61,578 nucleotides of DNA. Origin: Candidatus Zixiibacteriota bacterium. GTDB lineage: Bacteria > Zixibacteria > MSB-5A5 > SM23-73-2. How positions within the stretch are numbered: the stretch's first letter is position 1; each line of letters starts with the position of its first letter. The stretch covers positions 1 through 61,578 of the forward strand of contig JAUWYR010000010.1 in NCBI GenBank assembly GCA_030615745.1, given 5' to 3'. The notes below the pieces were generated by a model that was not told where the DNA came from, made no database searches, and saw only the letters and a program-made list of their open reading frames with translations. Positions 5,888 to 29,698 of the stretch are shown here, in pieces. A program made the translations under genes and the position numbers.

Positions 5888-5916
5888 ATGTTTAAATTTT
5901 AAAAAAGGAGATTTTT

Positions 5917-12664: not shown

Positions 12665-14011
12665 ATGAGTCCTTTGTCTATATTTAAAAAGTTTTTATCA
12701 AAAGTTAAAAAGAAAGAGGTTTTGCCGGATGAATTAAAAGGGATGGGTCTTTCTTTTAACAAAAGCTCTAAGTTTTCAGGGTTTCCTACTTCTCCGGTTT
12801 CAAAAAGGGGTGATGATTTTTATTTTAATCAGATGGCTTTTCCTGCTGAAAGATACGACCATAGTTTCAGAATTAAATTGTATAGATTTTTAAGGGATAA
12901 TATTCCGGTTTTAAATTCTGCTGTTTGGGTGTGGACCAGGTTCTGTTCCTCGCCGGGATATTTTGAGCTTAAGGGCTCAGATGACAAAAAACTTTTGGAT
13001 TCGGCAAAAAAGGTGATAGATGATTTGGACCAAAGGATTTTTCGCCACTCATATCAGAAGTTCGGAGGTGTTGAGGCGATGCTTTTTCAGTTTTTCAGCT
13101 CCCTTTTCACAGATGGAGCGGTTTGCGGTGAGCTAACAGTTTCACCTAACAAAGAAGGGCTGGATAAGTTCTTTTTTATAGACCCTGCTACAATCAGGTT
13201 TAAGCTAAAAGATGGAATAGAATGGGAGATTTATCAAGAGCAAAATGGAGGGTTGGTTAAACTCAACCCCTTCTCAACTTTCTACTATGGACTGGATGTT
13301 GACCCTTCTGACCCAAAGGGTAAAAGCATATTCTCCTCTGTTCCTTTTGTAGTGAGAATCGAACAGAGGCTTTTGGAGGATATGCATAAGACAATGCACA
13401 ATGCAGGTTATCATAGATTACATGTTAAAATCAAACCTCCGGAAAGATTCTCCTTTGAATCGGATAAGGCTTATCTTGAGAGGGCAAACAACTATTTTGA
13501 GGATACAGTTGAGATGATGAGAAAGATTGCGCCTGAGGATAATCCGGTAACGTGGAACGATGTGGAGATAACCTATATCGGTCCATCCGGACAACGTTCA
13601 CAAGCAACCTCCTGGTATATAAATCATAAATCTCTGGTAGAAGATATTTGTGCAGGAGTTCATCTTGACCCCTTTATGTTAGGATATTCCTATGGTCCTC
13701 CTTACAATTGGGCTCAGATAAAATATGAACTTGTCTTAAGATTTGTGGTCTCAATTCAATCCCCAGCTAAAAAATTTTTGGAGTGGTTAAGGAATTTAGA
13801 ACTTTCTCTCAAGGGTATTCCTTTAAGGTGTGTTCATCATTTTGATAACAGAAAGACTTTTGGTCTTTTGGAAAAATATCAGGCTGAGAAGATAAGATTG
13901 GAAAATACTCTGAAAAAGATTGAAGCTGGATTTATCACAAAAGAGCAGGGGAAAAGGGAGATTGAGAGTTTAGAATTGAGATTTGAGAAAGAGGGAGAAA
14001 GTAGGCAGTAG
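12665..14011 (+). CDS. Phage portal protein
   Basis: The 448-residue product has the portal layout: N-terminal charged region, a segment describing the clip/stem with GKSIFSSVPFVVRIEQRLLED followed by an aromatic-rich stretch, and a C-terminal helical region with coiled-coil character (EKYQAEKIRLENTLKKIEAG). It would form the dodecameric DNA-entry vertex and dock the terminase. The length is typical (400-550). The call rests on pattern and on its place next to TerL rather than on a diagnostic motif. Its last residues (ESRQ, stop) are encoded by an AGTAGGC heptamer array that continues past the stop codon. Portal preceding TerL is the reverse of the usual order. Confidence 0.72.
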   Translation: MSPLSIFKKFLSKVKKKEVLPDELKGMGLSFNKSSKFSGFPTSPVSKRGDDFYFNQMAFPAERYDHSFRIKLYRFLRDNIPVLNSAVWVWTRFCSSPGYFELKGSDDKKLLDSAKKVIDDLDQRIFRHSYQKFGGVEAMLFQFFSSLFTDGAVCGELTVSPNKEGLDKFFFIDPATIRFKLKDGIEWEIYQEQNGGLVKLNPFSTFYYGLDVDPSDPKGKSIFSSVPFVVRIEQRLLEDMHKTMHNAGYHRLHVKIKPPERFSFESDKAYLERANNYFEDTVEMMRKIAPEDNPVTWNDVEITYIGPSGQRSQATSWYINHKSLVEDICAGVHLDPFMLGYSYGPPYNWAQIKYELVLRFVVSIQSPAKKFLEWLRNLELSLKGIPLRCVHHFDNRKTFGLLEKYQAEKIRLENTLKKIEAGFITKEQGKREIESLELRFEKEGESRQ

Positions 14012-14480: not shown

Positions 14481-15812
14481 TTGGCAAAAAAGAGTATCTG
14501 GAGAAGGTGTATATCTGATCCGATTTTGTTTGCAAAAGAGATTTTAGAGATAGAGCCTCATCCTGGTCAGGTGAGGTGGCTTTGTTATTCAATAAAACCT
14601 GAAAATGCTCTGCACACTGGAAACAGATGGGGAAAATCTCAAGTTCAGGCAATAAAAATCCTTCATCGCTGTTTTTTTAAAATCAGAAAATTAAAATACA
14701 ACACAACTGATAAATATGAAGCTGTCAATGCATCAATAACTCTGGATCAGGCTAAAATAGTTTTTGAAAAAGTTATAAAACTTTTAAAAGGGAAAAGGGA
14801 AGCTGAGGCTTTAGTTAAAGATATTAAGTTCAGTCCATTTCCACATATCATCTTTGGAAATGACTCTGTTTTCTGGGCAAGATCTACTCAAAGAAGAGGG
14901 GAGTATCTTTTAGGTCATGATTATGACTATTTTAACTTCGATGAAGTAGCATTTGAGCCTCATCCTGAGTATGTTGTGGAGCAAGTTATAATGATGAGAC
15001 TTGCTGATAGAGCGGGGATGCTCGATTATATCTCGACACCTAAGGGGAGAAACTGGTTTTACAAGAAATGTGAGTGGCTTAAAACTCATCCAAAATCAGG
15101 CTATGTTCAAAATGGTGATACTCGTGAAAATCCTTATATATCCAGAAAATATTTAGAAAGGAAGATAAAGACTTTATCTCCAAACAAGGTTGCACAGAAC
15201 ATCTATGGTGATTTCGTGGATGACCCTGACCAGGTGATTTTGGAAAAATATGTATCTGAGGCAACATCAAAATCTTGGGGTCTTTCACCTCCGGTATTGG
15301 GACACACGTATTGTCATGGTTGGGATTTAGCCAGGAAAAGGACATATACAGTTGGAATAACCTTAGATATTACTGAAATACCTTATCAGGTTGTAGCACT
15401 CCAACGTTTCCAACGTGAATGGAAGGATGTTTATTCAGCTATAAGAAAAAGGAAAAAAGAATATGAAGGACAGGTGATAATAGATTCAACTGGTTTAGGT
15501 GATGTGGTCTTAGCTGAGCTTTCTGATATTAAGCCTGTAGGTTTCAATTTCGGGGAAAGGGGAGGAAAGGCTAAATCTGAGTTGATCTCGAACCTGCAAC
15601 AAGCACATGCTTTGGGTCAGATTGCTTATCCCTATATTGAACAGACCGATGCGGATGGAGAGGTATGGTCTTTGCAGGATGAGTTGAGGAATTTCTACTG
15701 GGATTCAAAAAAAGATTGTGATGCGGTGATGGCGTTGGGGTTGGCTTTGTGGCTTGTTAGAGGAAGGGTAGAAAAGCCGATTGTGGTTTTGCCGAGGATT
15801 GAAAGAGTATAA
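14481..15812 (+). CDS. terL: Phage terminase large subunit
   Basis: The 443-residue product is a two-domain packaging motor. The ATPase shows a Walker A variant GNRWGKS at residues 47-53, Walker B YFNFDEVAF with the catalytic Glu near 150 and the coupling motif ISTPKGRNW near 203. The RNase-H-like nuclease shows acidic residues in GWDLARKRTYT, VIIDSTGLGD and DCDAVMALGLAL. All key residues are present, so it looks functional. It starts with TTG; a stop codon two codons upstream excludes an earlier start and the ribosome site is weak. No small terminase is adjacent. Its stop codon lies in a GTATAAAAGTTTAAAGGTTC repeat also seen in non-coding DNA at 14.16 kb. Confidence 0.93.
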   Translation: MAKKSIWRRCISDPILFAKEILEIEPHPGQVRWLCYSIKPENALHTGNRWGKSQVQAIKILHRCFFKIRKLKYNTTDKYEAVNASITLDQAKIVFEKVIKLLKGKREAEALVKDIKFSPFPHIIFGNDSVFWARSTQRRGEYLLGHDYDYFNFDEVAFEPHPEYVVEQVIMMRLADRAGMLDYISTPKGRNWFYKKCEWLKTHPKSGYVQNGDTRENPYISRKYLERKIKTLSPNKVAQNIYGDFVDDPDQVILEKYVSEATSKSWGLSPPVLGHTYCHGWDLARKRTYTVGITLDITEIPYQVVALQRFQREWKDVYSAIRKRKKEYEGQVIIDSTGLGDVVLAELSDIKPVGFNFGERGGKAKSELISNLQQAHALGQIAYPYIEQTDADGEVWSLQDELRNFYWDSKKDCDAVMALGLALWLVRGRVEKPIVVLPRIERV

Positions 15813-16451
15813 AAGTTTAAAGGTTCAAAGTTTAAAGGTTTAAGGGTTGAGGGTTGAGAAAGAGAAAGATAATAGGCAGTATACAGTATACAGTAGCAGT
15901 GGGCAGATAAAAGAAGAAATTCTTGACTCTGGAGTGTAAAGCCCCGCCTAAGGCGGGATCTTCGACTTCAGCTTTACTTTAAACGAGAAGCTCTCTATGA
16001 TTTAAGTCGGTAATCCCTATATGGGCGTAAATTATTGAAAATTAATGCAACATTTCGCCCATATGGGCGGCTACCAATTCAGAGGATATCAAAGACTAAG
16101 GCACGGGTTGGGACAAGCTGTGCTACTAAAGATAAGAGCATAGAGAGTTGAGAGTTGAGAAAGAGGAAGCAGTAGGCGGTAAACAGTAGGCAGATAAAAG
16201 TAATGGAGGCTTTGCGAAGCATTCTTCGAATATCCTCGCTGAATAATCTTCTAAAATTGCTGGGCTGGGACCCCAGCACTATTATTGAACTAACGAGAAA
16301 TTTTCGATAGTTTTTAAGATTAGGCGCAAAATAAAATGCCCCTCCGCCTTTGGCAGGAGGGGCTATCCCGATGGAGGGGTTGTTACTCCCTGGTGGTTAG
16401 GAGTCTTTTTAGTTGTTTCTGCATTTTAAATGCAGAAACAACACATCTCAA
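15813..16451. repeat. Repeat-filled gap inside the phage-derived cassette
   Basis: No gene is seen on the + strand. It holds heptamer/octamer arrays at 15806-15905 and 16139-16200, a CCCCGCCTAAGGCGGG hairpin near 15941, a TATGGGCG/CGCCCATA pair bounding about 60 bases near 16020-16075, a GCCCCTCC/GGAGGGGC hairpin near 16339, and the palindrome GTTGTTTCTGCAT/ATGCAGAAACAAC at 16414-16442. Confidence 0.7.
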
Positions 16452-16883
16452 TTAAAAATTCAAACTCAAATATAAATTCAAGGTTATCTTCTCCTGGTCA
16501 TATAAACATAGAACCTTATATTTATGATTATCGAAAGTGGCTGAGGTTATCCCTAAAATATCTACAAATATGTCCCTTGCACTCCAGCCTTCCCGATAAG
16601 CATCCTCCCACTCTTTCAAAATACCTAAAGACAAAAGTATTGCTCCTGAAAGATATTTGTTGTAACTTTTTGATAAGATTTTTTGAGAAATATATATACC
16701 GGTGAAATGCTGCCATTTGTCCGGAGCTTTTATATCCCAGCGCTGGTCTGTATAAAACCAAGAGTCCCTGTGGGGAGGAAGCTGTTTGAATCTTCCATCT
16801 TTCGGATAGTTCCAGCTCAAGGCTTTGCCATAAGAGAAAAGTATTACTGAGATGAGAACCAAAACAATTATTTTGAACTTCAT
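16452..16883 (-). CDS. YfiM/DUF2279-like exported protein
   Basis: The 143-residue product has a signal peptide (IIVLVLISVILFSYGKALS) followed by DKWQHFTG and, 30 residues on, GILKEWEDAYREGWSARDIFVDILG, the His-plus-acidic pattern of the YfiM/DUF2279 family of envelope proteins with membrane-embedded helices. The family's function is unknown. It is transcribed against the cassette, between TerL and the protease-ligase gene, so it is probably a host-type or moron gene. A TTG six bases upstream is an alternative start; no strong ribosome site is seen. Confidence 0.65.
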   Translation of the reverse strand: MKFKIIVLVLISVILFSYGKALSWNYPKDGRFKQLPPHRDSWFYTDQRWDIKAPDKWQHFTGIYISQKILSKSYNKYLSGAILLSLGILKEWEDAYREGWSARDIFVDILGITSATFDNHKYKVLCLYDQEKITLNLYLSLNF

Positions 16884-16984
16884 CTTCAACCCAAAGTTTG
16901 ACTTTCTTTTTTAACATTTCCCCCTCACTTTTGAAATGTGATGTTTTCTACTTCTATTTTGAGCAAATAATATGCCCGGGTGAT

Positions 16985-17262
16985 TTTAGGTGGTAGGTGT
17001 TAGGTAATGGGTTGTAGGGTAAGAGGATAAGAGATTTGAGAAAGGGATTTGAGGAAAAAGGACTGTGAAGAAGAATGCATAGGTTCAGTAGTCCTGTTCA
17101 CGATAGATTTGAGAAATGAGATTTGAGAGTTGAGAAATGAGATTCGAGATTTGAGAAAGAGGGAAATAGTAGGCAGTAGACAGAAAACGGGAAACGGGAA
17201 ACGGGAAACGGTAAACGGTAAACAGAAAACGGTAAACGGAAAACGGTAAACGGTAACCGGGT
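16985..17262. repeat. Multi-family heptamer arrays
   Basis: 16985-17020 is TAGGTGN-like, 17040-17165 alternates GAGATTT, GAGAGTT and GAGAAAT, and 17185-17262 is a nearly pure 7-bp array of AAACGGG, AAACGGT and AAACAGA units. A GCGGGG/CCCCGC hairpin with surroundings follows near 17288-17310. The rest of 16890-17347 holds nothing recognisable. Confidence 0.9.
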
Positions 17263-17347
17263 CTCTTTAATTGAGATAAGACTAAAAGAGGGGCAACCCC
17301 GCCCGAAGGCGGGGTTGTAGGGGAGCATTGTAAAACCGGGGGATTTT

Positions 17348-17497
17348 TTAGGAAAAGCTTTTTATGGCTTTTCCTACAGAAAGAAGCAAGTTATGACACC
17401 TTTCCCCTATGGCGTGGTCAAATGTTAATAGGACAAATAATGTCACGATTATGATAATTAATACAAAGATTAAATTTTTTGAAATCTGATTTTTCAT
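17348..17497 (-). CDS. 49-residue single-span membrane protein under a sigma-54 promoter
   Basis: A short frame reads MKNQISKNLIFVLIIIVTLF and continues VLLTFDHAIGERCHNLLLSV to a Ser-Lys-rich end. Residues 9-25 form one membrane helix with positive residues before it, so it should insert N-in. A canonical sigma-54 promoter lies 48 bases upstream of the ATG on the same strand, giving a leader of about 35 bases; GTGAT is a possible ribosome site. A GGAAAAGC/GCTTTTCC hairpin overlaps the 3' end. I do not recognise the family. The promoter placement is the main argument that it is real. Confidence 0.5.
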   Translation of the reverse strand: MKNQISKNLIFVLIIIIVTLFVLLTFDHAIGERCHNLLLSVGKAIKSFS

Positions 17498-17544
17498 TTT
17501 TTACATCACTTTTTTCGTTAGAAATTTTTATCTAACTTTTTTTA

Positions 17545-17561
17545 GTGCAACTTTTGTGCCA
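17545..17561 (-). promoter_or_regulatory. Sigma-54 (RpoN) promoter, minus strand
   Basis: On the minus strand the bases read TGGCAC-AAAAG-TTGCAC, a full match to the -24/-12 consensus with GG and GC ten bases apart. It lies in a non-coding AT-rich gap and points at the 49-residue membrane protein gene. The upstream side (17562-17690) contains a half-site-like ACTTAAAA. Confidence 0.75.
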
Positions 17562-17699
17562 ACATAGTATTTTTTAATTTATTCAAAATCATATACTTAA
17601 AACTCTCCTTTTTTTGTCACAAATGAATTTTTGCAATTTTTTGCACAATTTTTTTAAAACTCAAAATCACTACATAAAAGATGGTGAAAAGGATAGGGG

Positions 17700-17905
17700 G
17701 AGGGGAAGTGAAGAGTGGAGTGATTTGAGAGTTGAGATTTGAGAAAAGTAGCCAGTAGGCAGTAAGCAGTAGGCAGATAAGAGATTTGAGATTTGAGGAA
17801 GAAAAGAAAAGTAAACAGTAGGCAGTAGGCAGATAAGAGAGTTGAGAGAAGTAAGCAATAGGCAGTGGGCAGACAAGAGAGTTGAGATTTGAGATAAAGA
17901 GAAGA
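17700..17905. repeat. Heptamer arrays upstream of the protease-ligase gene
   Basis: Alternating GAGATTT/GAGAGTT and AGTAGGC/AGTAAGC/AGTAAAC units with a 7-bp period fill most of this stretch. A copy of the 37-bp motif (17662-17698) precedes it. Confidence 0.85.
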
Positions 17906-17981
17906 TTAATGCTTTAGGTGAAAAAATATGGTTTTAAAGGTTGACTTTAAAAAGTTAAATTAGAAGAGGGTAAGGGGTTAA

Positions 17982-20186
17982 ATGTTAGAGGAATTGTTGG
18001 GAAATTTAGAGGGGAGATTGACTGAAAAGCAAGAGGTGGTTTCTGATGATTTGGTTTTTTTGATAAACTCGAAAATTAAACCCTTGGTGTCTGTTAAAAA
18101 AGACCAGATTTTCATCCGTGCGATGTTTTTGGTATCGGATGAGGTTAATACCTATGGAGGATGTTTTCCTTCAGATGAACATAAAGGATTAGCTTCTCTT
18201 CTTGTTGACTCTCCGGTCCTTGTCGGTCATAAAAAAGATAAGCTTCCAATAGCGAGGAATTTTAAAGCTGAATCGGTTAAAAAGGATGGGCATAACTGGA
18301 TAAAGGTGTGGTTTTACTGGTTAACATCTTCTGAGGGAGCTTTTTCTTTGAAGGAAAACATTGACCATGGAATCTACAAGGAGTGTTCATTAGGTTTTTT
18401 GTTTGAATTTCCTGAGTGCTCAGTGTGCGGTCAGGATATGAGATATTGTGAGCACATTCCTTTTAAAACCTACCAAAAAGATGGGGGTTTTGTTCAGGCA
18501 TTTTTTAACTACAGAAAAATAAATAAGGTTCTGGAGACCTCTTTGGTCTATCGAGGTGCTGTGCCTAATACCTCGATGACCAATGAGTTTATCTATCAAA
18601 AACATCAGTGCAAAGATGATTTATGTAAGTTGAAAAGATTATACCGGGAGGTGGTGGAGGGGTCTTTAAAAAGGATGGGACTAAAAGATCAAGTTGAGCT
18701 GGCTGGGAGTATAAAGGATAAAGGATACTCAGACCATCATATCGATATGGTCTGTAAACCAGAGCTAAAAGATAAGATATTATCTTTTTTGCCAGCCAGC
18801 TACAAAGATAAAATACACTTTGTCGAGGAGACTTCTAAAGAAGAAAAAAATATAATCCCTTTAAATTTTGTTCCTCCTACAAATCCTGAGAAAAAAGAAA
18901 AAAGTTCAAATGAGTTTTTCTATCTCGATGATTTAAAACTTTTATCTGGCGAGTTTATAGTTGAGCCAAAATATGATGGAGTGAGATTACAGCTCCATAA
19001 AAAAGAAGATAAATTTGAGATTTTTACCGGTGATGGAAAATCTGTAAAGGATAAATTTCCAAATTTGACAAAGCATTTTTTAAAATCTCCTCACACTTCT
19101 TTTATCCTCGATGGTGAGATGGTTAAATACAGAGGAAAGACAAGGCTTTCTTATAAGGATGTGTCAGAATATATTTTAAATAAAGATTTTCTTTTTGATT
19201 CACATTTCAGATATAAGGTTTTCGATATTTTGTATTTAGATGGAAAGGATTTAACTTCAAGTCCATTAAGTGAAAGAAAAGAGATTTTACAAAAAAGTTT
19301 TGAAGAGAGCCAATTTTTAAATATAGTGAAATTTGAGAAAGTATCTGAAGATAAAATCACAGATGTTATAGAGAAAGTCTCCACTTCTGAAGGGGCGATA
19401 ATAAAAGCTTCAACTTCTGGATATTTTGACTCAAAAGATTGGTTCAAATGGAAAAAAGATTTCCAACTCGATGTTCTGGTTACCAAGGTTATAAAGAACA
19501 AGGGTAGCACATTTAATTACCTCTGTGCAGTGGGATCAAGAGAGGTTCCTTTTGTTTTAGGCACCACATATTCGACAAATATTCAAGCAGATGCCGGTGA
19601 AATCTTAAGAGTCCAGATAGATTATTTGACCAAAACCAAGGATGGCTTTACCTGGTATGCTCCAAAGGTTTTGGATAAAAGGGAGGATAAAAAAGAGCCT
19701 GACCCCTTCTCTGTTTTGGAGAGGATGATTAAGAAAAAAGAAAGAGATTTGAGATTTGAGAAAGAGAAAAAAGAGCGGTTTGTTCTTCAACTTCATTTTT
19801 GGGGAAAATCAAGACATCATAATCTGAGGTTTGAGAAGGGAAATAGCTTAATTGGGCTGACTCTGTTTAAACTAAATTTAGCTGACCTAAAAAATGGGAG
19901 AAGGTTTTTGTGTGAATGGAAGGATTGCCAGGATTTGAAATGGCTCGATTTCGAAGGTGAGATTCCTCCTGAAGAGGACTCTGAGGGAAAACCGAGCAAA
20001 AACAAGGTTTCCTATATGAAGATTCTGGATAAAGGGGAATATGAGATTTTAGAAGAAGACCCCGATTTTCTTAGCTTTAAAATTTCAGGAAAAATCTTAA
20101 ATGGAGTCTATCTGGTGAGGAAAGTTAAGCTCAATGGAATTGATAGGTGGCTTTTCTGGAAAAAGAAAGAAGAGGTTAAAAATTAA
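17982..20186 (+). CDS. Four-part fusion: phage maturation protease, nucleotidyltransferase-like segment, ATP-dependent DNA ligase, LigD-type phosphoesterase-like domain
   Basis: Residues 35-200 resemble an HK97-type prohead protease: His in VLVGH near 84 and Ser in ECSLGF near 136 fit the family His/Ser pair, followed by a zinc-knuckle-like CSVCGQDMRYCEH. Residues 212-285 (ELAGSIKDKGYSDHHIDMV) resemble a minimal nucleotidyltransferase with an altered metal site. Residues 312-570 are a full ATP-dependent DNA ligase core: KYDGVR (acceptor Lys330), FILDGEMV, FDILYLDG, EGAIIK, WFKWKKD, then an OB-fold. Residues 598-734 (LQLHFWGKSRHHNLRFE, FEGEIPP, RWLFWKKK) resemble the LigD 3'-phosphoesterase, here C-terminal to the ligase. 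The ATG follows GAAGAGGGTAAGGGG. Ligase assignment is strong; protease good; the other two are inferred. Confidence 0.8.
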   Translation: MLEELLGNLEGRLTEKQEVVSDDLVFLINSKIKPLVSVKKDQIFIRAMFLVSDEVNTYGGCFPSDEHKGLASLLVDSPVLVGHKKDKLPIARNFKAESVKKDGHNWIKVWFYWLTSSEGAFSLKENIDHGIYKECSLGFLFEFPECSVCGQDMRYCEHIPFKTYQKDGGFVQAFFNYRKINKVLETSLVYRGAVPNTSMTNEFIYQKHQCKDDLCKLKRLYREVVEGSLKRMGLKDQVELAGSIKDKGYSDHHIDMVCKPELKDKILSFLPASYKDKIHFVEETSKEEKNIIPLNFVPPTNPEKKEKSSNEFFYLDDLKLLSGEFIVEPKYDGVRLQLHKKEDKFEIFTGDGKSVKDKFPNLTKHFLKSPHTSFILDGEMVKYRGKTRLSYKDVSEYILNKDFLFDSHFRYKVFDILYLDGKDLTSSPLSERKEILQKSFEESQFLNIVKFEKVSEDKITDVIEKVSTSEGAIIKASTSGYFDSKDWFKWKKDFQLDVLVTKVIKNKGSTFNYLCAVGSREVPFVLGTTYSTNIQADAGEILRVQIDYLTKTKDGFTWYAPKVLDKREDKKEPDPFSVLERMIKKKERDLRFEKEKKERFVLQLHFWGKSRHHNLRFEKGNSLIGLTLFKLNLADLKNGRRFLCEWKDCQDLKWLDFEGEIPPEEDSEGKPSKNKVSYMKILDKGEYEILEEDPDFLSFKISGKILNGVYLVRKVKLNGIDRWLFWKKKEEVKN

Positions 20187-20193
20187 AAAAGTT

Positions 20194-20490
20194 ATGATTG
20201 GGAATAATAATAAATTCTTTTCAAAAGTTCATCTACTTCAGTTTCTTTTTGCCTTTTTTGTGACAGCTTTTGGAATCATAACCGCATACCATACTGCTAT
20301 TTTTGGAATAAAATTAGACCTAACAAAAAAAGCTGAGTCTGAGATTGTAAATCAACTCGATAAAAAGCTTTCAAGAATTGAGATACATATAAATGAAAAT
20401 CTTTTGACCAAAAACGATTTTTACCAATTCAAAGAGCAAATGGATAAAAGATTGACCAGAATAGAATATAAGCTAAAGATAAAAAAATAA
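20194..20490 (+). CDS. Small membrane protein with C-terminal coiled coil (holin/spanin-like position)
   Basis: The 98-residue product has one strong membrane helix (LLQFLFAFFVTAFGIITAYH) near residues 11-30, a second weaker hydrophobic stretch, then an amphipathic coiled coil ending KLKIKK. I chose the ATG 8 bases after the preceding stop; a longer frame overlapping the fusion gene is possible. Small proteins of this shape in phage clusters are often lysis accessory or membrane-anchoring proteins, but this is inference. It sits between the protease-ligase and the presumed scaffold gene. Confidence 0.6.
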   Translation: MIGNNNKFFSKVHLLQFLFAFFVTAFGIITAYHTAIFGIKLDLTKKAESEIVNQLDKKLSRIEIHINENLLTKNDFYQFKEQMDKRLTRIEYKLKIKK

Positions 20491-20509: not shown

Positions 20510-20944
20510 ATGAAAGAGGTCGAGTTAGCGAATAAGTTAAAAGGATATGCAGAGATATTAGAAGATGAGAGCGTTGAGAAAATCGAGTTCGATTCTTTAA
20601 AAGACGCTCTTAAAAAAGCGGCTACAAACCTTGTCCAATTAGAAGGAACAAAAAAACTGTGTGAGAGGCTTCTTTGTGATTTCAAATCGGAGTTAAAAAG
20701 ATTAGCCAATTTTTTATCCTTTGCCAAAAGTGATAGCTCTACTTTAAACTTGGTTGAAAACCTTTTAAGCTCAGAAAACTTGGATTTCGATGATTTAATT
20801 CTTTTAAGGAAAAAACTAAAAGCGGAGTTCGATAGCGCGTTTCCTTCAAGGCCACTTTCGAGGGCGGTTGAGAAAATCGACGATCAAGGGAAAGATATTT
20901 TTGAATCCAAAATCGGGGAGTTCAGAGTAGGTGGTAGGTTATAG
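20510..20944 (+). CDS. Coiled-coil protein, possible capsid scaffold
   Basis: The 144-residue product is highly charged and almost wholly helical, without domain signatures. Its place between the maturation protease and the capsid gene, and its helical nature, fit a scaffolding protein, though the capsid protein also appears to carry its own N-terminal delta-like region. AGAGGTGAG lies just before the ATG. The last residues (RVGGRL, stop) are encoded by a TAGGTGG heptamer array that continues to about 20975, so the natural C-terminus may have been replaced by repeat expansion. Confidence 0.55.
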   Translation: MKEVELANKLKGYAEILEDESVEKIEFDSLKDALKKAATNLVQLEGTKKLCERLLCDFKSELKRLANFLSFAKSDSSTLNLVENLLSSENLDFDDLILLRKKLKAEFDSAFPSRPLSRAVEKIDDQGKDIFESKIGEFRVGGRL

Positions 20945-21047
20945 GTGATAGGTAGTAGGTATTAGGTGTGGGTTTGAAAACCCTAAGATGTTGTCTTCAA
21001 AGACAGGTTAAAATTTTAAAGTTTTAAAAAGATGAAAGGAGAAAATG

Positions 21048-21467
21048 ATGGGAATAAGAGAGCAAGATTTAGAGGGATTGGGTGCAGTCTATGCCAGCTT
21101 TGAGATCAAACAGACCGGTGGGGTTGATGATTTGAAGGATGAGGATATTGGAAAAGCGGTCAAGATTTCGGATGATAATCAGGTGTGTCTGTCCATCGAT
21201 GGTTCTATGTTTTTGGGGAAATTAGTTGATCTTTCCTTGACCGATGCTGATTCCGGGAAAAGGGTGGCTACTGTTCAGATAAAAGGAGTGATGACCGTTC
21301 CAATAACCACCACCTATCCAGAAATTGGAGATCGGGTAGTTGGGGGTGCAGATGGAACTGTTAAGAAGGCTCCGGCTTTGACAGGTTATGACCCTGCTGG
21401 CGGAAATATTGCCAGGGGAACTGTGGTCTGTGTGAATGGGACTTCTGAGTGTACCCTTGTTATGTAA
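21048..21467 (+). CDS. Capsid decoration-like protein
   Basis: The 139-residue product is beta-rich, with a DIGKAVKIS...VCLSIDGSMFLGKLVDLS stretch and a C-terminal YDPAGGNIARGTVVCVNG...CTLVM. Small beta proteins directly before the major capsid gene are usually head-stabilising or decoration proteins; the VGGADGTVKKAP turn resembles such proteins. Of two ATG codons three bases apart, the second has the better spacing to AAAGGAG. The function is inferred from position and size. Confidence 0.55.
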   Translation: MGIREQDLEGLGAVYASFEIKQTGGVDDLKDEDIGKAVKISDDNQVCLSIDGSMFLGKLVDLSLTDADSGKRVATVQIKGVMTVPITTTYPEIGDRVVGGADGTVKKAPALTGYDPAGGNIARGTVVCVNGTSECTLVM

Positions 21468-21491
21468 CCCTTAAATTTATTGGAGAAAAAA

Positions 21492-22607
21492 ATGACAGAG
21501 GATAGATTTTTCAATGAAAATTCACCTGAATTCCAAAGGCTTTTGGAGCTTGCCTCCAAAGAGAAGCCTATCTCAGGGACCATCGATCTGTCCAGGGCAA
21601 AAGAGATAAAAGTGACAAAGGACATGTATCTTGAGGCTCAGAAAAGGGGTATGACTTTATCTGAGCTTTTAGAGACTGGGGATTATGACCCTTCTTTTGT
21701 GGGGTCCCCTCTGGATGCTTTTGAGAAACAACTTCTACTTCATGGGATAAAGGTGAGTGGTAAAAATGCAGTCTCTGTGGAGCTTTTCTATCAAGGGGCT
21801 CCAGCTCTTCTTCCTGAGTTCATGATGAGAGAGATCAAAAAGGGACAGAGGATGAGACCTGAGTTGGAAAAAATTGTCTCAAGCTCCAACCAGATCTCAA
21901 ACTCCAGATACACACCTTTCTATGTTGATGTTACCCCTACGGATAGAAAGCTCTCCTTGCGCCCAATAGGTGACCTTTCCCATATTCCAACAATCACTGT
22001 GGCTGAGCAAGTTCATACAATAACTGTGCCGGATTATGGAGTGACTCTCAAAACCTCTTACAAAGCCCTGAGGTCAAAAAGCACAGCCCAGTTTAAGGTT
22101 TTATTATGGTATATCGGGTTCAGATTGCAGGCGGATAAGATGGCTTTGGTTGTGGATACGATAATCAATGGAGATGGAAATCAGAATCCAGCAAAAGTTG
22201 TTAATACCGAGACATCAGGAACCCTTTCTTATTCGGACTTAGTTGGATTATATAACGAATTTTTTCCCTTTGAGATGAACACCATCCTATGCCATAAGGA
22301 TAAGATCAACAAAATTTTGAATATGGATGAATTCAAAGATCCGATGGCTGGTTTTAAATTCCAAAAGACCGGTGAGCTTGTCTCTCCTTTGGGCTCAACT
22401 CTGATCCGATGCGATGATGTGCCATCTGACTTACTTTTAGGACTGGATAATCGGTTTGCTATTGAAGAGGTTGTCTCCTCTCCACTTATGGTGGAGTATG
22501 ACAAAGTTATTGAGCAAAAGTTAGAGGAGGCGGTTATCTCTGAATCTGTGGCTTATGCTAAGGTGATAAAGGAAGCATCTCTGATTTTAGATTCAGTCTG
22601 GACTTAA
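21492..22607 (+). CDS. Major capsid protein, HK97-fold type
   Basis: The 371-residue product has the length and order of HK97-type coat proteins: an N-terminal helical delta-like region (about 1-85), a conserved FMMREIKKGQRM helix, a long central domain with LRPIGDLSHIPTITVAEQVHTI, a QADKMALVVDTIINGDG spine-helix segment, and a C-terminal beta tongue ending LDSVWT. The maturation protease upstream would remove the delta region. GGAG lies 6-7 bases before the ATG at 21492. A strong hairpin follows at 22631. The call is good on context and pattern, without an exact motif. Confidence 0.75.
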   Translation: MTEDRFFNENSPEFQRLLELASKEKPISGTIDLSRAKEIKVTKDMYLEAQKRGMTLSELLETGDYDPSFVGSPLDAFEKQLLLHGIKVSGKNAVSVELFYQGAPALLPEFMMREIKKGQRMRPELEKIVSSSNQISNSRYTPFYVDVTPTDRKLSLRPIGDLSHIPTITVAEQVHTITVPDYGVTLKTSYKALRSKSTAQFKVLLWYIGFRLQADKMALVVDTIINGDGNQNPAKVVNTETSGTLSYSDLVGLYNEFFPFEMNTILCHKDKINKILNMDEFKDPMAGFKFQKTGELVSPLGSTLIRCDDVPSDLLLGLDNRFAIEEVVSSPLMVEYDKVIEQKLEEAVISESVAYAKVIKEASLILDSVWT

Positions 22608-22866: not shown

Positions 22867-24288
22867 ATGGAAAGACTTCTAGAGAAATCAAGCTCTTTTT
22901 ATGGCACAGGGATTGGGCCACAGGCTAAGTTATTCAAAGTTTTATCAGGACAATACAAGAACAGAATCTTAGCCCTATATCCTAAGGATCCGGACACCTT
23001 GGTCTACTCTTGGGCTGACCCTCCTTATTTTAACTGGTCAGAGCCGGAAAATATTGCAACCGATTCTGCTGATTATCCCTGTTCTGGTCTTATGGATGAG
23101 GATGGGAATTTATATGTTGTTTATACTGTGAAGACCACTTTAGCTTTAGCTTTTGTGAAATTATCATTTTCCTCTGGGAGCTGGTCTTTGGGCACTGTTC
23201 ATATAATCTGTAGTGTGGAGAAAAATTATTACCCGAGCATTACAAAAGATAGTTTGGGAAGACTATGGGTATCGTGGTCATACTATGACTCATCTTTATA
23301 CAGATACTATGTTCACGTTAAAAACTCAGTTGACCATGGAGTTACCTGGGGTTTAGGTGAGACAGACCCGGGGACCTCTTTGACCAATGGAGAAACATCC
23401 TGTTTTTCACAACTAATTTTTCTATCACCTCATATATATTGCTTTTACTCAGATGGTGGAACAAAATTAGCTTACAGAAGGATCGAGCTTTCAGAAGGTT
23501 TCTGGGAATCTGAGAACCAGATATATTCTGGCTCAGATATTAATTCTAACTTTTGCGCTTGTGTGTCTAAGGATAGAAGGATCGGAGTTGTCTTTCCTGG
23601 AGTTTCATCTCTTTTATACAAAGAATATGACGGGAGCAGTTGGAGTGGGATCTTCACTGTGGAGTCTGTTTTGCCGGTGAGTCCAGCTTTGAGGTTTTTT
23701 GAGGAGGTCCCATATATATTCTATGGTAAAAATATCGGAGAAAAGCAAAATCAGATTTTTTTCACCTATTTTAAAAATGGGGTTTTTGTTCAACCTCTCC
23801 CTTTAGTTTGCGGTGCAAAGACATTTGATAAAGTCTTCTGCTATGATGAGTCTGCTTCTGAAAAACATCATGATAGAACCTCTGAGGCAGGTGATACAAC
23901 CCCTGCTGATCTTTTTCATCCGGAATCTTTTGCCTTGATTAAAGATTCGGATGATTGTTTGTATTTAGGTTTGGATTGTAAGTTCAATCTGGTGAACATA
24001 ATCTTATCCACACCTGGTGTGGGAGGAGAGGTGATCTGGCAATACTGGGATGGAGAAGATTGGATAAGCTTTGTTCCATACTCCGGTTCTTATAATTTTG
24101 ATTCAGAGCATTTGATTGTGCTTTTATGGGAGGATTTATCATCTTGCCCATCTTTCTGGCAGAGGTGCAAAGTTTGTGAAGAGGATAAGTTCTGGATAAG
24201 AGTTAAAGTGAGCATAACTTATACAACTGCTCCTGTCGGAACCCAGATCACCGGTGTGCCTGAGGGAAAATATATAAATGTTATTTAA
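22867..24288 (+). CDS. Sialidase-like beta-propeller with baseplate/fibre-type C-terminus
   Basis: The 473-residue product has repeated propeller blades (SADYPCSGLMDEDGNLYVVY; YPSITKDSLGRLWVSWSYYD; VSKDRRIGVVFPG) of the BNR/sialidase kind, but without a complete Asp-box series or catalytic set. The last 110 residues contain IWQYWDGEDWISF and FWQRCKVCEEDKFWIRVKV, a pattern seen in phage baseplate and fibre proteins. It has no signal peptide. A virion surface, receptor-binding or decoration role is likely. The start is coupled to the previous gene. Confidence 0.6.
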   Translation: MERLLEKSSSFYGTGIGPQAKLFKVLSGQYKNRILALYPKDPDTLVYSWADPPYFNWSEPENIATDSADYPCSGLMDEDGNLYVVYTVKTTLALAFVKLSFSSGSWSLGTVHIICSVEKNYYPSITKDSLGRLWVSWSYYDSSLYRYYVHVKNSVDHGVTWGLGETDPGTSLTNGETSCFSQLIFLSPHIYCFYSDGGTKLAYRRIELSEGFWESENQIYSGSDINSNFCACVSKDRRIGVVFPGVSSLLYKEYDGSSWSGIFTVESVLPVSPALRFFEEVPYIFYGKNIGEKQNQIFFTYFKNGVFVQPLPLVCGAKTFDKVFCYDESASEKHHDRTSEAGDTTPADLFHPESFALIKDSDDCLYLGLDCKFNLVNIILSTPGVGGEVIWQYWDGEDWISFVPYSGSYNFDSEHLIVLLWEDLSSCPSFWQRCKVCEEDKFWIRVKVSITYTTAPVGTQITGVPEGKYINVI

Positions 24289-24323: not shown

Positions 24324-25163
24324 ATGGCATTCACCAATTTGGAAAAGGTTAAAAAGCATATAATAGAACATCATCTTGAATTTGACCTGGTAAGAAATCT
24401 TTCCTTTCAGTTTCAAGGTGATGATTATACAAAGCTCCCTCATGCTAATTTGAAAACTTACTCGGAGAAGGTGAAGGGAAAAGAGAGTTTTTCACCTTCA
24501 AAGGAAGAGGTGAGCTTTGAATCCGATGAATCCGCTTTTCTTTCCCATACCGAGCTGATACCAGATTCTGTGGTCGTGGCATCTGATTCATCACTTGGTG
24601 AGATCTATACCGAGAATGTTGATTATTCTGTTGATTATGATTTAGGCAAAATCAAAAGGATAGAATCTGGCTCTATTCCAGATGGTAAAACTGTTGTGGT
24701 ATGGTATCTTTTTTACCGGGTCTATCAAAGGGATGCAGATTATAAAATAGATTATTCGAATGGTAAAATCAAAAGGCTTACATCCGGTGTTATAGAGGAT
24801 GGTCAATGGGTTTTGTTGGATTATCAGATAGAATTTGGCTCTCTTTTAGATGAGGTTGTTGAAAATGCTATCTGCGAGGCACATGAGAGGGTTTTAAAAT
24901 TCATCGACCCCTCATATCATAATTCCACAGATCAAGGATTGGTAACAGCTGAAACTTATCTTGTTGTTTCCATTGTTTGCAATATAAAAGCTTCAGAGGC
25001 TAAAAGTGGAAAGGTATTATCTGGTTCTCAGGCAGATTCTTTGTCAAAAGCCTGGGAGAGATTGGCAGATTCTTATAGAAGACAAGCTTATTTGATCTTA
25101 AGTGATTTCGCTAAAAAAATTGGAGGGCTTTTTTCACCCAAGGCGGTGAAGAGTAAAAATTAA
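24324..25163 (+). CDS. Head-tail connector-like protein with duplicated beta module
   Basis: The 279-residue product contains two copies of a beta unit, NVDYSVDYDLGKIKRIESGS and ADYKIDYSNGKIKRLTSGV, each followed by a DG(K/Q).VVVWY-like strand, as seen in phage baseplate/neck proteins. The C-terminal 110 residues are helical (SLLDEVVENAICEAHERVL...WERLADSYRRQAYLIL), resembling gp6/gp36-type connector subunits. GAGGAGG precedes the ATG. I infer a neck or stopper role; no exact family is recognised. Confidence 0.5.
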   Translation: MAFTNLEKVKKHIIEHHLEFDLVRNLSFQFQGDDYTKLPHANLKTYSEKVKGKESFSPSKEEVSFESDESAFLSHTELIPDSVVVASDSSLGEIYTENVDYSVDYDLGKIKRIESGSIPDGKTVVVWYLFYRVYQRDADYKIDYSNGKIKRLTSGVIEDGQWVLLDYQIEFGSLLDEVVENAICEAHERVLKFIDPSYHNSTDQGLVTAETYLVVSIVCNIKASEAKSGKVLSGSQADSLSKAWERLADSYRRQAYLILSDFAKKIGGLFSPKAVKSKN

Positions 25164-25172
25164 GGAAGGGTT

Positions 25173-25547
25173 ATGGCTAATTTGACCTTGGATTATCTCA
25201 GGGGGAGGAGGATGTGGTTGGTTCAAAATTTTGTGGTGTGGGGTGGTTGTTGTGGAGAGGACTTCTATTTTCTTTACACTCAGGTTGATTCACAAGAAAA
25301 AAGGATTGTTTTCAACTCAACTTTTTTAGGTGGAGAAACACAGGATATTAGTTTTTCTTCTCTTTATGATTTCAAGGGAAACCAACTACCGGCTACAATC
25401 AATCATCCTAAGGTAGTTGTCCTGTCAAAAAAAGAGTTGTTTTGTTTTGTCTTAGGTTCGGAGACAGACTCCAGTTTTAAAATCGCAAAGGAAAAAGGGT
25501 TAAAAGAAGATGGATTGGTGGATCTTCTAATTGTGGAGATGGGTTAA
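25173..25547 (+). CDS. Phage-cluster protein of unknown function
   Basis: The 124-residue product is predicted beta-rich, with an unusual WGGCCGEDFYFLYTQVDS segment and a C-terminal helix. It starts 10 bases after the previous stop with GGAAGG before the ATG, so it is in the same unit. Its size and place fit a head-closure or tail-terminator protein, but nothing in the sequence proves this. Confidence 0.5.
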   Translation: MANLTLDYLRGRRMWLVQNFVVWGGCCGEDFYFLYTQVDSQEKRIVFNSTFLGGETQDISFSSLYDFKGNQLPATINHPKVVVLSKKELFCFVLGSETDSSFKIAKEKGLKEDGLVDLLIVEMG

Positions 25548-25610
25548 AGTTTATTTTTTTAAATTTTTAATTTAGTTCCGAAGGATTCATCGAAGATCAA
25601 GAGATAGAGT

Positions 25611-25865
25611 ATGAAAGTAAAAAGAAAAAATCGAAGATCAAAAGAGAGAAAGCAAAAAGTAGTCTCTGAAGAAGACTTTTTAGAGAAGCTTTTAAAAAAA
25701 CTTCTGAAAAAACTCAATAACAAAGATTACAAGCCAACAGTTTCTGATGCGATCAAGGCGATACAGCTGAAAGAGAAATTGAAAAAGACCTCTGAGGCAG
25801 AAAAGATTTTCTGGGAGTTGATTGAAAAGATAAGATTGGAGGAGTTGGGGAAAATTGAGAACTGA
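25611..25865 (+). CDS. Small basic helical protein, possible DNA-binding (small-terminase-like)
   Basis: The 84-residue product begins with a very basic segment (KVKRKNRRSKERKQK) and continues as amphipathic helices with YKPTVSDAIKAIQLKEKL and FWELIEKIRLEEL. The basic head plus helical tail recalls short small-terminase or DNA-binding proteins, and no other small-terminase candidate exists in the cassette, but the match is weak. The ribosome site is poor. Confidence 0.45.
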   Translation: MKVKRKNRRSKERKQKVVSEEDFLEKLLKKLLKKLNNKDYKPTVSDAIKAIQLKEKLKKTSEAEKIFWELIEKIRLEELGKIEN

Positions 25866-25913: not shown

Positions 25914-27215
25914 ATGAATGATAATAAAGTTCAAAAGTGCATATGCATCAAGAGATGGTGCTGGTGGATAAGTATAGGGCTTTTCTTTTTGCTTTTGTCT
26001 CTTGATCCATTCGGACTTATATGCTCAAAGGCACAGGCTGGTGTTATAAACTCCGCCCACGATGCTAATTGCTGTTCGGTCTGGGTATCGGGTGAAAATC
26101 CGACCTGGCTTGTCTCATTTGATAAATCTAAAGGTGGGGTGATAAGAACATTAAGACAGCCCTACGATGGTTCTAATATAGCTTCAACACATACTGATAA
26201 TGGTGGTTGGGGTAACTGCGAAACCAACTTTCTAACTGGTGGTGCGGGTAGGTGGTATCACAATATAGAAGATGAGAGTCCTTCAGTCACGGTAGTTGAG
26301 AGCACAAGCACCCGGTTCAGGTTCTATTTAGAAGCGGATTTAATATATGATGTATATGATTCTGGTGATGTAAAAGATACTATTACTTGCTACTATAATC
26401 GGATAATTTATGATAGAACGATAGTTACAACGGGACAGAATCGAGCAGGTGGCTGGCGACCCCACGTTTTTGCCTGGCTTCAATCAGCTATTGAAGATAG
26501 CATAATCTTTGCAGATGATGACGAGATAGATATTGTGAATAATATAACGCATACTGGAAATAAGTCTTTACCTACTGGTCAGGATACAGTTCACGCACAA
26601 GAGTTTATTAGAGAGGGTGCAGGGGATACGACTTTTTTATGCATCAATTATAGAAATCTATATCCAGGTAATATAGATATGTATGTATCACACGATGAGG
26701 CAACAAGACGTGGTAGCGGACACGCAGCAGGTGAGGGGGCAGTTGCTGGAACTTACGAGCTTAAGTTCTTTTATGAATTTGGCACATTAAATCACGATGG
26801 GACAGATGCTCAGGATAGATTTGTGGATTATATGTTTCCTTCTCCCATAACTATGACTTATGGAACTGGTGGAACGTGGGTAGAGACAAGGGGTTGTTAT
26901 CAAGTAATAGATGGTGGAGTCGATTCAGTTATCTTTACTTTTGTTAGGGACAGCTGGACAGACTCCACAGTTTACAATCCTGTAATAGAAGTTGCAAGCT
27001 GGGATGGTTTTATACCAGATACAATCTCAGTGGGTGGAGTTAAAAAAATCAAGGATACAGATTTTTACGCAGATACTGTGGATGCTAAGAATTTTCTAAT
27101 AGTGCATTATTTGGGTGATATATCAGGTTCTGATACGGAGATTATAATTCCAATTAGGGCAGGGGTAGCAGAAGGAATAAATAAACTTTTAGTTAAAAGA
27201 CAACAGAGGAAATAG
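25914..27215 (+). CDS. Exported beta-rich protein of unknown function inside the cassette
   Basis: The 433-residue product begins with a basic, Cys/Trp-rich N-terminus and a Sec signal/membrane helix (WISIGLFFLLLSLD...) with likely cleavage after KAQA. The remainder is beta-rich with many Gly, Asp and Thr and no domain I recognise; HAAGEGAVAGTYELKFFYEF and the Asp-rich turns suggest a secreted beta-sandwich or propeller. A signal peptide is unusual for a virion part, so it may act at the cell surface. The start region carries a copy of the TGCATATGCATCAAGAGA element (25938-25955). No good ribosome site is seen. Confidence 0.55.
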   Translation: MNDNKVQKCICIKRWCWWISIGLFFLLLSLDPFGLICSKAQAGVINSAHDANCCSVWVSGENPTWLVSFDKSKGGVIRTLRQPYDGSNIASTHTDNGGWGNCETNFLTGGAGRWYHNIEDESPSVTVVESTSTRFRFYLEADLIYDVYDSGDVKDTITCYYNRIIYDRTIVTTGQNRAGGWRPHVFAWLQSAIEDSIIFADDDEIDIVNNITHTGNKSLPTGQDTVHAQEFIREGAGDTTFLCINYRNLYPGNIDMYVSHDEATRRGSGHAAGEGAVAGTYELKFFYEFGTLNHDGTDAQDRFVDYMFPSPITMTYGTGGTWVETRGCYQVIDGGVDSVIFTFVRDSWTDSTVYNPVIEVASWDGFIPDTISVGGVKKIKDTDFYADTVDAKNFLIVHYLGDISGSDTEIIIPIRAGVAEGINKLLVKRQQRK

Positions 27216-27285
27216 CAATGAGATTTGAGAGCTGAGATTTGAGGAAAATTGATGCAAGAGACAAGAGATAAAATGAGGGAATGAT

Positions 27286-29151
27286 ATGAAAAAGATTATC
27301 TTTAGTTTGATTTTTATTCTTTTACTTTTCAGCACAGCTCAGGCGGACTTCTTTGGCACTTTTGGGACTGCTACTGAAGTGGATGATACCTGCAGACTTT
27401 ATTTTGAAACTTTTGATACGCTCGGACATTCAGCTAATCCAGTTGGTGATTCTATTTATGTTTTAAGGTTTGTGCGGGGAACACTTGTAGATTCCACCTC
27501 TGCTTCAAAGTTAAGGGAATATTACTGGGGTATCACAAAGAAAGCCTACGATGGAACTAATCTTGGACAATATAGTGTGGTAGCTTACTGGCGACCCTGT
27601 GTAGGCAAGTGGTATAATGATGCTGGATATTATATTGTCGAACCCGAGACGGTTTCTTATGCGAGGGGAGATACTATTCAAAGAGATGCTTCTACTTTTG
27701 ACAACACCTCTGATTATATTAAAATCTCAGAAGGCACAGGCACAGGGCAATTAGACCTATCTTCTGGAAAGGTGAAATTAGCGGGAATTACGCACACTGG
27801 AGCGACGATCCCAACGGTTACTTCGGTAACTAATAATGTTAATATAAATTCCAATGCAGATATAACAGACATAAAAAATCAGACTGATAAGCTCACTTTT
27901 GATGGGTCTAATAATATTTATTCCACACCACAGACCAATGTAACCGTCGGCACAAACAATGATAAGACAGGATATTCTTTGACTACTGATTATATAACTA
28001 AATCTGATTCGGGTTCAACTGGAGCTTCTTATCTCAGGACAAAATATGTAGAGGATAAAACAGGTTACACGGTCTCAACGGTTCAAGATAAAACAGGCTA
28101 TGCCCTTACTTCAGATTATCATACCAAAGCGGATACAACAGGCGATACTTCTTACCTTCGGACAAAACAGGTTGATGACAAAACGGGTTATTCTTTAACC
28201 AGCGACTATCCACAAAAATCCGATTCTACATCTTTCCAGGCTAAAGGCTTTTTAACAAAGGGTGATACTACATCTTGTCAGGCAAAGGGTTTTTTAACTT
28301 TATCAGATCTACCAACAATGGCAGATATTTTCTGGCTGAAGGATACAACAGATTATAAAGATTCATCTGGAACTATGGGAGAGTATCTGGTGCACAAATC
28401 TGGTGGTGGAGCTACAGCACAGGAGATATGGGAATATCAGGGAGAGATTACCTTACAGGATACTATCCCGAAAGTTTATGCGGTGAATATAACTGCTGGA
28501 ACTGACCCTGATAGCATAGCAAATCATGTTTGGAGTTGGTCTACAAGGACATTGACCACAGGATGTGGAACCGGGGCAAATCAGGTCAAAATAAAGGTAT
28601 TGCAATCCTCAGATTCAGCAGAGATTGTTGGAGCACAGGTTCAAATACTCAATCTAACTCAGACCTCGACTTTGGGACTTTTGACCACCAATGCAGAAGG
28701 ATGTGTGGTCTTTGCTCTGGATAATGATACTTTGTTAGTTAGAATATACAAGCCCGGATGGATGTTTACAGTTCCAGAAACCCTGAAAGTATCTGGTGAT
28801 ACAGATACAACGTATTACGGAGGACTTTTTGACCCTGGTTATCCTCCAGCTCCAGAGCTTTGTCGAGTCTATGGATGGGTTAAGGATATAAATGACTTAC
28901 CTGTTTCCGGAGCGAAAGTTCAAGCTAAAATCGATGAGATACCTTTAAGGTATCAGAGCGTTTTAATCAGTCCCTATTATAAAAAGACCACGACTGATTC
29001 GGATGGATACTGGTATCTGGACCTTTTCCCAAATTCAATCTTAAACCCGGACACCACCTCTTATATAATAATTATCTATGGCTCAAGGGGGACAATACTA
29101 AATTTGAAGACCGAGGTTCCTTTTCAAGGATCCTGGGAGTTAAGTTTCTGA
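27286..29151 (+). CDS. Tail-fibre-like repeat protein with signal peptide and regulatory-like Ig domain
   Basis: The 621-residue product starts with a clear signal peptide (IIFSLIFILLLFSTAQA). Residues about 190-350 contain a repeat with core DKTGYSLTSDY (variants DKTGYALTSDY, DKTGYTVS), a module common in phage side-tail fibres, interleaved with TKSDS/TKADT units. The last 95 residues (CRVYGWVKDINDLPVSGAKV...TTTDSDGYWYLDLFP) form a carboxypeptidase-regulatory-like Ig domain found in phage fibres. The mixture of fibre repeats and Sec signal is odd. The stop overlaps the ATG of the endolysin gene by one base. Confidence 0.65.
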   Translation: MKKIIFSLIFILLLFSTAQADFFGTFGTATEVDDTCRLYFETFDTLGHSANPVGDSIYVLRFVRGTLVDSTSASKLREYYWGITKKAYDGTNLGQYSVVAYWRPCVGKWYNDAGYYIVEPETVSYARGDTIQRDASTFDNTSDYIKISEGTGTGQLDLSSGKVKLAGITHTGATIPTVTSVTNNVNINSNADITDIKNQTDKLTFDGSNNIYSTPQTNVTVGTNNDKTGYSLTTDYITKSDSGSTGASYLRTKYVEDKTGYTVSTVQDKTGYALTSDYHTKADTTGDTSYLRTKQVDDKTGYSLTSDYPQKSDSTSFQAKGFLTKGDTTSCQAKGFLTLSDLPTMADIFWLKDTTDYKDSSGTMGEYLVHKSGGGATAQEIWEYQGEITLQDTIPKVYAVNITAGTDPDSIANHVWSWSTRTLTTGCGTGANQVKIKVLQSSDSAEIVGAQVQILNLTQTSTLGLLTTNAEGCVVFALDNDTLLVRIYKPGWMFTVPETLKVSGDTDTTYYGGLFDPGYPPAPELCRVYGWVKDINDLPVSGAKVQAKIDEIPLRYQSVLISPYYKKTTTDSDGYWYLDLFPNSILNPDTTSYIIIIYGSRGTILNLKTEVPFQGSWELSF

Positions 29152-29636
29152 TGTCGAAGATTAAGAGATTTTGTCGAAGATCAAAAGATTTGGAGATTGG
29201 ATTTAAAATTAAAAGATTAGAAAAGGAGTTTGAAAGAGCAGACCCTCGGTTAAGGGCGATTTTGTTTGAGCTTGCTTTTTTGGCCAAAAGTCGTTTAAAA
29301 AAAAAGCTTTTAATAACCCATATAGAGAGAACTCAAAAAGAGCAAAATCTTTTACACCGGGAGAGAATAGCTCAGGGATTTTTTGTCTGGGTAAATGGTG
29401 AAAAATTCTATTCTGAGGATAGGAAAAAACCAACCCTATCCCCACATCAGTCAAAGTCTTGTAGAGCAGTTGATCTGAGAAACAGAGATTTCATAGATGA
29501 GGAGATATTTAAGATGAAAAAACATTTAGATTTCTGGTTTCCTTATGGTGGGGGGAGACCGACTTTTCTCTGTCATAAAAACTCAGATGAGCATATTCAT
29601 CTGCAGGTGCCGGGTGAGATAGGTGGTAGGTTGTAG
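29151..29636 (+). CDS. M15-type peptidase endolysin
   Basis: The 161-residue product shows the zinc-ligand pattern of M15 D-Ala-D-Ala carboxypeptidase-like lysins: SPHQSKSCRAVDLRN (His and Asp ligands) and EHIHLQV (third His), preceded by LITHIERTQKEQNLLH. It should cleave cell-wall peptide cross-links. The N-terminus is basic and helical, without a signal peptide, so release would need the holin. It overlaps the fibre gene by one base. The final residues (IGGRL, stop) are encoded by a TAGGTGG heptamer array that runs on to about 29690. Confidence 0.78.
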   Translation: MSKIKRFCRRSKDLEIGFKIKRLEKEFERADPRLRAILFELAFLAKSRLKKKLLITHIERTQKEQNLLHRERIAQGFFVWVNGEKFYSEDRKKPTLSPHQSKSCRAVDLRNRDFIDEEIFKMKKHLDFWFPYGGGRPTFLCHKNSDEHIHLQVPGEIGGRL

Positions 29637-29698
29637 GTGTTAGGGAAAAAACTAACAACTAATAACTAATAACTAACAACTAAAAGATGGAGGTTAAG

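Follow-up and report, generated by a model that had tools for sequence, protein, structure and literature searches.

Several described systems bear on the locus analysed here. Our comparison for the gene transfer agent (GTA) pattern of vertical retention and purifying selection is RcGTA of Alphaproteobacteria (PMC9836097), and FpGTA of Faecalibacterium is a short-tailed GTA that makes particles from a similarly small, podovirus-like cluster with genes for terminase large subunit (TerL), portal, scaffold and major capsid protein (MCP) (PMC12946183). Bacterial LigD carries an ATP-dependent DNA ligase and a phosphoesterase (PE) domain in one chain, the 3'-phosphoesterase residues being His42, His48, Asp50, Arg52, His84 and Tyr88 (PMC8656161). 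In the ANMV-1 virus (KP703175), a polypeptide annotated as 'ATP-dependent DNA ligase' lies directly after the portal and combines nucleotidyltransferase-like (NTase-like), ligase and PE-like parts in that order.

A head gene cluster with a fusion ORF

The window, by which we mean the whole 61,578 bp stretch of a Zixibacteria contig that was analysed, contains on its forward strand a head and packaging cluster ordered portal-TerL-protease-scaffold-MCP. At the protease position lies one long ORF without internal stop, whose domains are listed below together with the genes around it.

12665 to 14011, + strand: portal protein (phrog_3753, E=2.5e-35; homologue at 46 of the 64 loci examined)
14481 to 15812, + strand: TerL (phrog_2, E=8.6e-30)
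17982 to 20186, + strand: fusion ORF, protease - NTase-like - DNA ligase - PE-like, 734 aa
17982 to 18602, + strand: prohead maturation protease domain, aa 1-207 (His83, Ser136; zinc knuckle C146/C149/C156/H158 at 18417-18455)
18603 to 18881, + strand: NTase-like domain, aa 208-300 (motif by eye and alignment to ANMV-1)
18933 to 19736, + strand: ATP-dependent DNA ligase core with OB fold, about aa 318-585 (catalytic Lys330 at 18969-18971)
19776 to 20165, + strand: LigD 3'-phosphoesterase-like domain, aa 599-728 (Asn614 is the Asp50 equivalent, Gln650 the His84 equivalent)
20134 to 20490, + strand: small membrane/coiled-coil protein conserved in the cluster (57 of 64 loci; true start probably about 20194)
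20510 to 20944, + strand: scaffold-like protein (fused directly to the protease in RBG-1, L003)
21045 to 21467, + strand: virion structural (decoration-like) protein (phrog_4588, E=5e-8; 61 of 64 loci)
21480 to 22607, + strand: MCP (phrog_3922, E=4e-63; in 74 of 79 good genomes)
22867 to 24288, + strand: beta-propeller-like structural protein, proposed tail nozzle (Reg_prop, E=4e-4; 56 of 64 loci)
24324 to 25163, + strand: connector/adaptor-like conserved protein (phrog_18315, function unknown, E=9e-12; 56 of 64 loci)
25173 to 25865, + strand: two small conserved cluster genes of 124 and 84 aa (54 and 50 of 64 loci)
27286 to 29151, + strand: fibre-like protein with signal-peptide-like N-terminus (50 of 64 loci; identity by eye)
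29151 to 30010, + strand: lysis-like pair, peptidase-like and holin-like (identity by eye)

The propeller, connector, fibre and lysis assignments are putative, and the lysis-like pair drew no confirmation from Pfam or NCBIfam. Neither a tail tube nor a tape measure was identified in the cluster. Reading of the cluster, together with a Pfam search of ten neighbouring genes, brought up no integrase or replication family; the neighbours tested all belong to the host (M48 peptidase, Lon-like protease, MscS channel, SpoIIE phosphatase, symporter). Searched against Rfam and for tRNA genes, the window gave no match.

Some further features of the region may be recorded here. The stretch of 2.2 kb that separates TerL from the fusion gene (15813-17981) contains no convincing gene, the 129-aa minus-strand ORF there having no NCBIfam match. 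Two large distal cluster genes (25914-29151) start with signal-peptide-like sequence, which is unusual for virion proteins, and at 40379-43755 two adjacent paralogues carry repeated 'SGNVYVTG' propeller-like units and dockerin-like C-termini. In RBG-1 (L003, 2256-9830) several secreted dockerin-type genes are inserted between the cluster's portal and protease.

An assembly chimera, which the original prediction had named as a possible refutation, is ruled out as the origin of the fusion ORF by independent full-length relatives: a counterpart 73% identical is found in an independent MAG, and full-length fusion proteins 55-60% identical occur in three genomes of the same order. Low-confidence, linker-like stretches fall at the domain borders in the AF2 model of the protein (191-215, 283-293 and 585-596; viral NTase segments were trimmed from the input alignment and, untrimmed, aligned onto the protease).

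The protease domain matches phrog_16951 (E=5e-14) and, by tblastn, the 'major head and protease protein' of Flavonifractor phage Cormatin; a fused viral homologue matches the 'head maturation protease' of Enterococcus phage fHoEfm07 in the same kind of search. The protease profile had no match among PDB sequences. The protease fold expected of the N-terminal part was recovered in its AF2 model, for which a viral 'Prohead serine protease' is a structural match (target TM 0.71, E=9e-14), and the His of VLVGH and Ser of ECSLGF on which the assignment had been based are invariant in 47 of 47 aligned homologues (H74 and S127 in alignment A1). The CxxC...CxH motif, read earlier as zinc-knuckle-like, is invariant too; it belongs to the protease domain and does not form a separate one. 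Fold, conserved His and Ser, position between portal and MCP, and linkage of protease to scaffold are all as in HK97-type prohead proteases (phrog_16951, phage Cormatin), which, unlike the window protein, have no large C-terminal ligase module. Profile, motif and fold matches thus bear out a maturation protease fused to a complete ligase within a head gene cluster. The literature searched gave no description of a protease-ligase fusion, in keeping with the earlier statement that no system of this architecture was known.

Inheritance of the cluster across Zixibacteria

Besides the window, the Zixibacteria loci include those of SM23_73_2 (L002) and RBG-1 (L003). The protease is present in 120 and the MCP in 112 of the 133 Zixibacteria genomes searched; for the 79 good genomes the numbers are 75 and 74, almost always in single copy, and the regions from 18 families are largely syntenic. 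Trees of eight cluster genes and of RpoB (49 genomes, FastTree) have 34 of 46 splits in common, compared with a mean of 0.2 and a maximum of 2 after shuffling; the Mantel correlation is r=0.88, and the strongly supported splits are without conflict. Mean identity across the phylum is 64% for the MCP and 69% for RpoB. In most comparisons of structural genes (portal, TerL, MCP) dN/dS is about 0.01-0.1, with higher values, up to 0.3, in some scaffold, decoration, propeller and fibre comparisons and in one MCP comparison.

The host-congruent tree, the purifying selection and the absence of a recognised integrase together indicate that the cluster is a vertically inherited, phylum-wide gene-transfer-agent-like element, with the pattern of a GTA and not of prophages. 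The head and packaging cluster in which the fusion lies is not that of an ordinary phage. We know of no earlier account of a phylum-wide Zixibacteria GTA-like element, and the literature searched contained no paper pairing gene transfer agents with Zixibacteria. With RcGTA (PMC9836097) and FpGTA (PMC12946183) the element shares vertically retained head and packaging genes, purifying selection, small cluster size and the lack of recognised replication or integration genes; it differs in its phylum, in its conservation across that whole phylum, in a protease bearing a ligase or pseudo-ligase, and in being known from genes alone.

Fate of the DNA-directed domains

The ligase region matches Pfam PF01068 (E=3.6e-30, aa 322-491), and the nearest solved sequences are archaeal and human DNA ligases (Sulfolobus DNA ligase 2hiv, E=4e-13). 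Structure prediction, put forward earlier as a check, agrees: the AF2 model, with pLDDT mostly 80-94 over this region, matches archaeal and human DNA ligases in Foldseek at E about 1e-17. The complete motif set reported between KYDGVR and WFKWKKD is confirmed, with motifs I, III, IIIa, IV, V and VI and the OB fold all present and K330, D332, R335, E379, F414, E470, K475, K489, K491 and R567 invariant in the five full-length proteins aligned from families f1 and f3. No other PF01068 ligase was found in the source genome, so that the fusion is the only ATP-dependent ligase there. That genome, 98.6% complete, also gave no match to Ku (PF02735), and non-homologous end joining (NHEJ) as in LigD, which had been raised as a precedent, is for this reason unlikely.

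The other two domains have fared differently in the window lineage. A LigD likeness of the C-terminal domain finds some support in a weak Pfam LigD_N match (E=0.041 in the window protein, 0.0021 in its relative L034), but the LigD 3'-phosphoesterase catalytic set is incomplete in the window protein, with Asn614 in place of Asp50, Gln650 of His84 and Trp654 of Tyr88; relatives L034 and L035 keep the His, His, Asp, Arg and His and not the Tyr88 equivalent. The nucleotidyltransferase-like motif is likewise supported by the alignment with ANMV-1, but the stretch has no Pfam family match and the first Asp of its DxD is lost, leaving HxD (HHID) in the window and KxD in sister L002; the G-S/G plus DxD signature of pol-beta-type nucleotidyltransferases is thus not found in the window, and the DxD is intact in the f3 relatives L034 and L035 (HDLD/HDVD) and in ANMV-1. 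Because both domains have lost catalytic residues, the proposed cleaning of DNA ends is unlikely in this lineage, and with its motifs complete the ligase alone of the three DNA-directed domains still looks catalytic.

Across the phylum the module occurs in every stage of completeness from whole to absent. The protein is complete in families f1 and f3, except that one f3 member (G108) has no NTase-like part; f2 keeps the protease, NTase-like and PE-like parts and has no ligase, and f5 keeps the PE-like part. A ligase region is recognisable in f4, f8-f13 (not in every f12 member) and f18, and absent from f6, f7, f15-f17 and f19. The ligase catalytic residues are present in 5 of 5 proteins of f1 and f3, whereas the motif-I Lys is present in none of about 38 members having a residue at that position in eight other families, whose pseudo-ligases have also lost the motif III Glu and the motif IV Lys. 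The kinship of these remnants with true ligases is apparent from hhalign (f8 pseudo-ligase against intact ligases, 97.4%, E=1e-11) and from the model of an f4-type protein, L143, which matches DNA ligases at E=3e-10 from an alignment that contained intact ligases. Estimates of dN/dS are 0.13-0.14 for the intact ligase, 0.18-0.30 for two pseudo-ligase pairs and 0.04-0.10 for the protease. The pseudo-ligases are under weaker constraint than the intact ligase or the protease, and the comparison shows selection evidently maintaining the intact ligase in f1 and f3. On the host tree the pattern is most simply read as an ancestral fusion with repeated decay; the f1/f3 ancestor may have gained its intact ligase secondarily, from a phage. 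As judged from these sequences, the distribution shows the ligase to be dispensable for the element: since it lacks the catalytic Lys in most of the phylum, the element does not depend on bringing a ligase to the recipient, contrary to what the original prediction implied.

Viral relatives and competing explanations

Searching viral contigs with the whole fusion gave no match, and viral relatives were found with alignments of its pieces, the ligase module included. The contigs L145/L148/L287 and L147 have the order portal - protease-ligase - scaffold-like - decoration - MCP with intact ligase motifs; their proteases are 32-44% identical to that of the window in the best segment, the ligase motif residues are kept in viral fusions only about 30% identical, and L287 (of phage contig L145/L287) carries a Dit tail gene (phrog_33, E=9e-18). 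The suggested search for the same domain order beside terL or portal has returned it in f1 and f3 Zixibacteria, the viral contigs having a portal-adjoining protease-ligase. The NTase-ligase-PE order occurs in ANMV-1 and others too and so is not unique, the ANMV-1 polypeptide differing from the window protein in having no protease domain.

In other contigs (L099, L101, L104) the portal is followed, immediately or after a short interval, by a ligase polyprotein, and in L099 and L101 the MCP lies downstream. In L101, L102 and L107 the C-terminus of this polyprotein is an XkdF-family protease (PF14550; E=7e-14, 1e-17 and 1e-28), XkdF being a proposed head-processing peptidase (PMC7824862); these fusions resemble the window protein in joining a ligase-PE module and a maturation protease in one polypeptide, and differ in that the protease is C-terminal and of an unrelated family. 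In L105 and L115 the gene next downstream of the ligase-PE module carries a head maturation protease domain. By these domain assignments the ligase module has joined maturation proteases from two or more unrelated families, sometimes ahead of the protease and sometimes behind it. The examples are matches to the ligase module, with no background rate of ligases lying close to proteases set against them, and phage ligases of 280-470 aa that stand alone came up in the same search. Recurrence beside or fused to different maturation proteases makes a particle-associated ligase, as originally proposed, more likely, and favours a ligase that is part of the procapsid or acts there. We found no description of such a recurrent association in tailed viruses in the literature searched.

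The best explanation of the whole, which we hold to be probable though far from certain, is that the fusion ORF encodes the maturation protease of a phage-derived GTA-like particle with a built-in ligase. A tailed phage would have integrated before the phylum diversified and become the inherited GTA-like particle of Zixibacteria, and at the protease position this phage ancestor would already have carried an NTase-ligase-PE module or have come from a lineage in which one was readily acquired there. Co-translation with the protease would bring the ligase into the procapsid; once the protease fired, the ligase would probably be cut free at flexible linkers and would close nicks or ends in the packaged DNA, either inside the particle or once the DNA has been delivered. 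Since packaging normally follows the exit of an HK97-type protease from the shell, it is uncertain whether the C-terminal part would be encapsidated. In the rest of the phylum the catalytically dead fold survives, presumably in a structural role, or the domain is lost, a decay that would fit an element needing no genome circularisation or repair and keeping the fold for assembly. More tentatively, tailed viruses and the phylum-wide element may both carry a ligase in their particles through its link to the maturation protease (from two or more unrelated families), with the result that packaged DNA is repaired, or has its ends joined, inside the particle or on arrival, domestication usually losing catalysis and keeping the fold.

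The ligase fold could instead have been recruited as the assembly (core or scaffold) domain of the protease, catalysis in f1 and f3 being incidental or serving another cellular task. This would suit the eight families in which the domain, where it can be detected, has lost its catalytic residues yet remains under constraint, as well as the direct fusion of protease to scaffold in RBG-1; we consider it unlikely given that all ligase motif residues are retained in every f1 and f3 member aligned and in the distant viral fusions. A PBSX-like killer or other particle, in which host DNA is packaged and not delivered and the ligase only repairs nicks during packaging, would agree with a conserved portal and TerL, which imply packaging, and with the lack of tail tube or adsorption genes recognised with certainty. 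The conserved fibre-like and propeller proteins, however, would fit a short tail and make this reading quite improbable.

Two further readings touch the origin of the gene. Homologous fusions in phage contigs, and the tails of some free relatives, might suggest an ordinary Zixibacteria prophage with an unusual ligase gene fusion, but the cluster is single copy and phylum-wide, its tested flanks are only host genes, no integrase or replication gene was recognised, and the congruence of cluster and RpoB trees contradicts the idea, which we regard as very unlikely. That a host LigD-type end-joining enzyme captured a protease domain is scarcely credible: the ligase and PE domains are of LigD type, but the gene lies inside a head cluster, the nearest relatives with the full module are viral, the PE residues have been replaced, and Ku-dependent NHEJ is rejected for lack of Ku. 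Compared with bacterial LigD, the window protein also has no POL domain and has gained protease and NTase-like parts.

The finding goes beyond what was first stated: it takes in both a GTA-like element that spans the phylum and a protease-ligase association recurring in tailed viruses. Capsid maturation and DNA sealing are not known to go together; a ligase inside the particle would make DNA repair a part of virion and GTA biology, directly testable with one protein. A GTA-like element across an entire, largely uncultured phylum would extend the few known cases, and its intact, decayed and lost ligases offer a natural series for studying domestication.

Three minor observations concern the viral contigs. 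One ORF (L096:3-2384) encodes a ligase-PE module, then a weakly matched protease (phrog_15531, E=0.0037) and a coiled-coil scaffold, an order reversed with respect to the window. The L102 polyprotein (3072-6854) carries ligase, PE-like, Dam-type DNA methyltransferase and XkdF protease domains in one chain. Many viral contigs (L154-L233), several from gut, have an MCP 31-37% identical to that of Zixibacteria, often with portal, protease and decoration genes, and are possibly kin to the Faecalibacterium GTAs.
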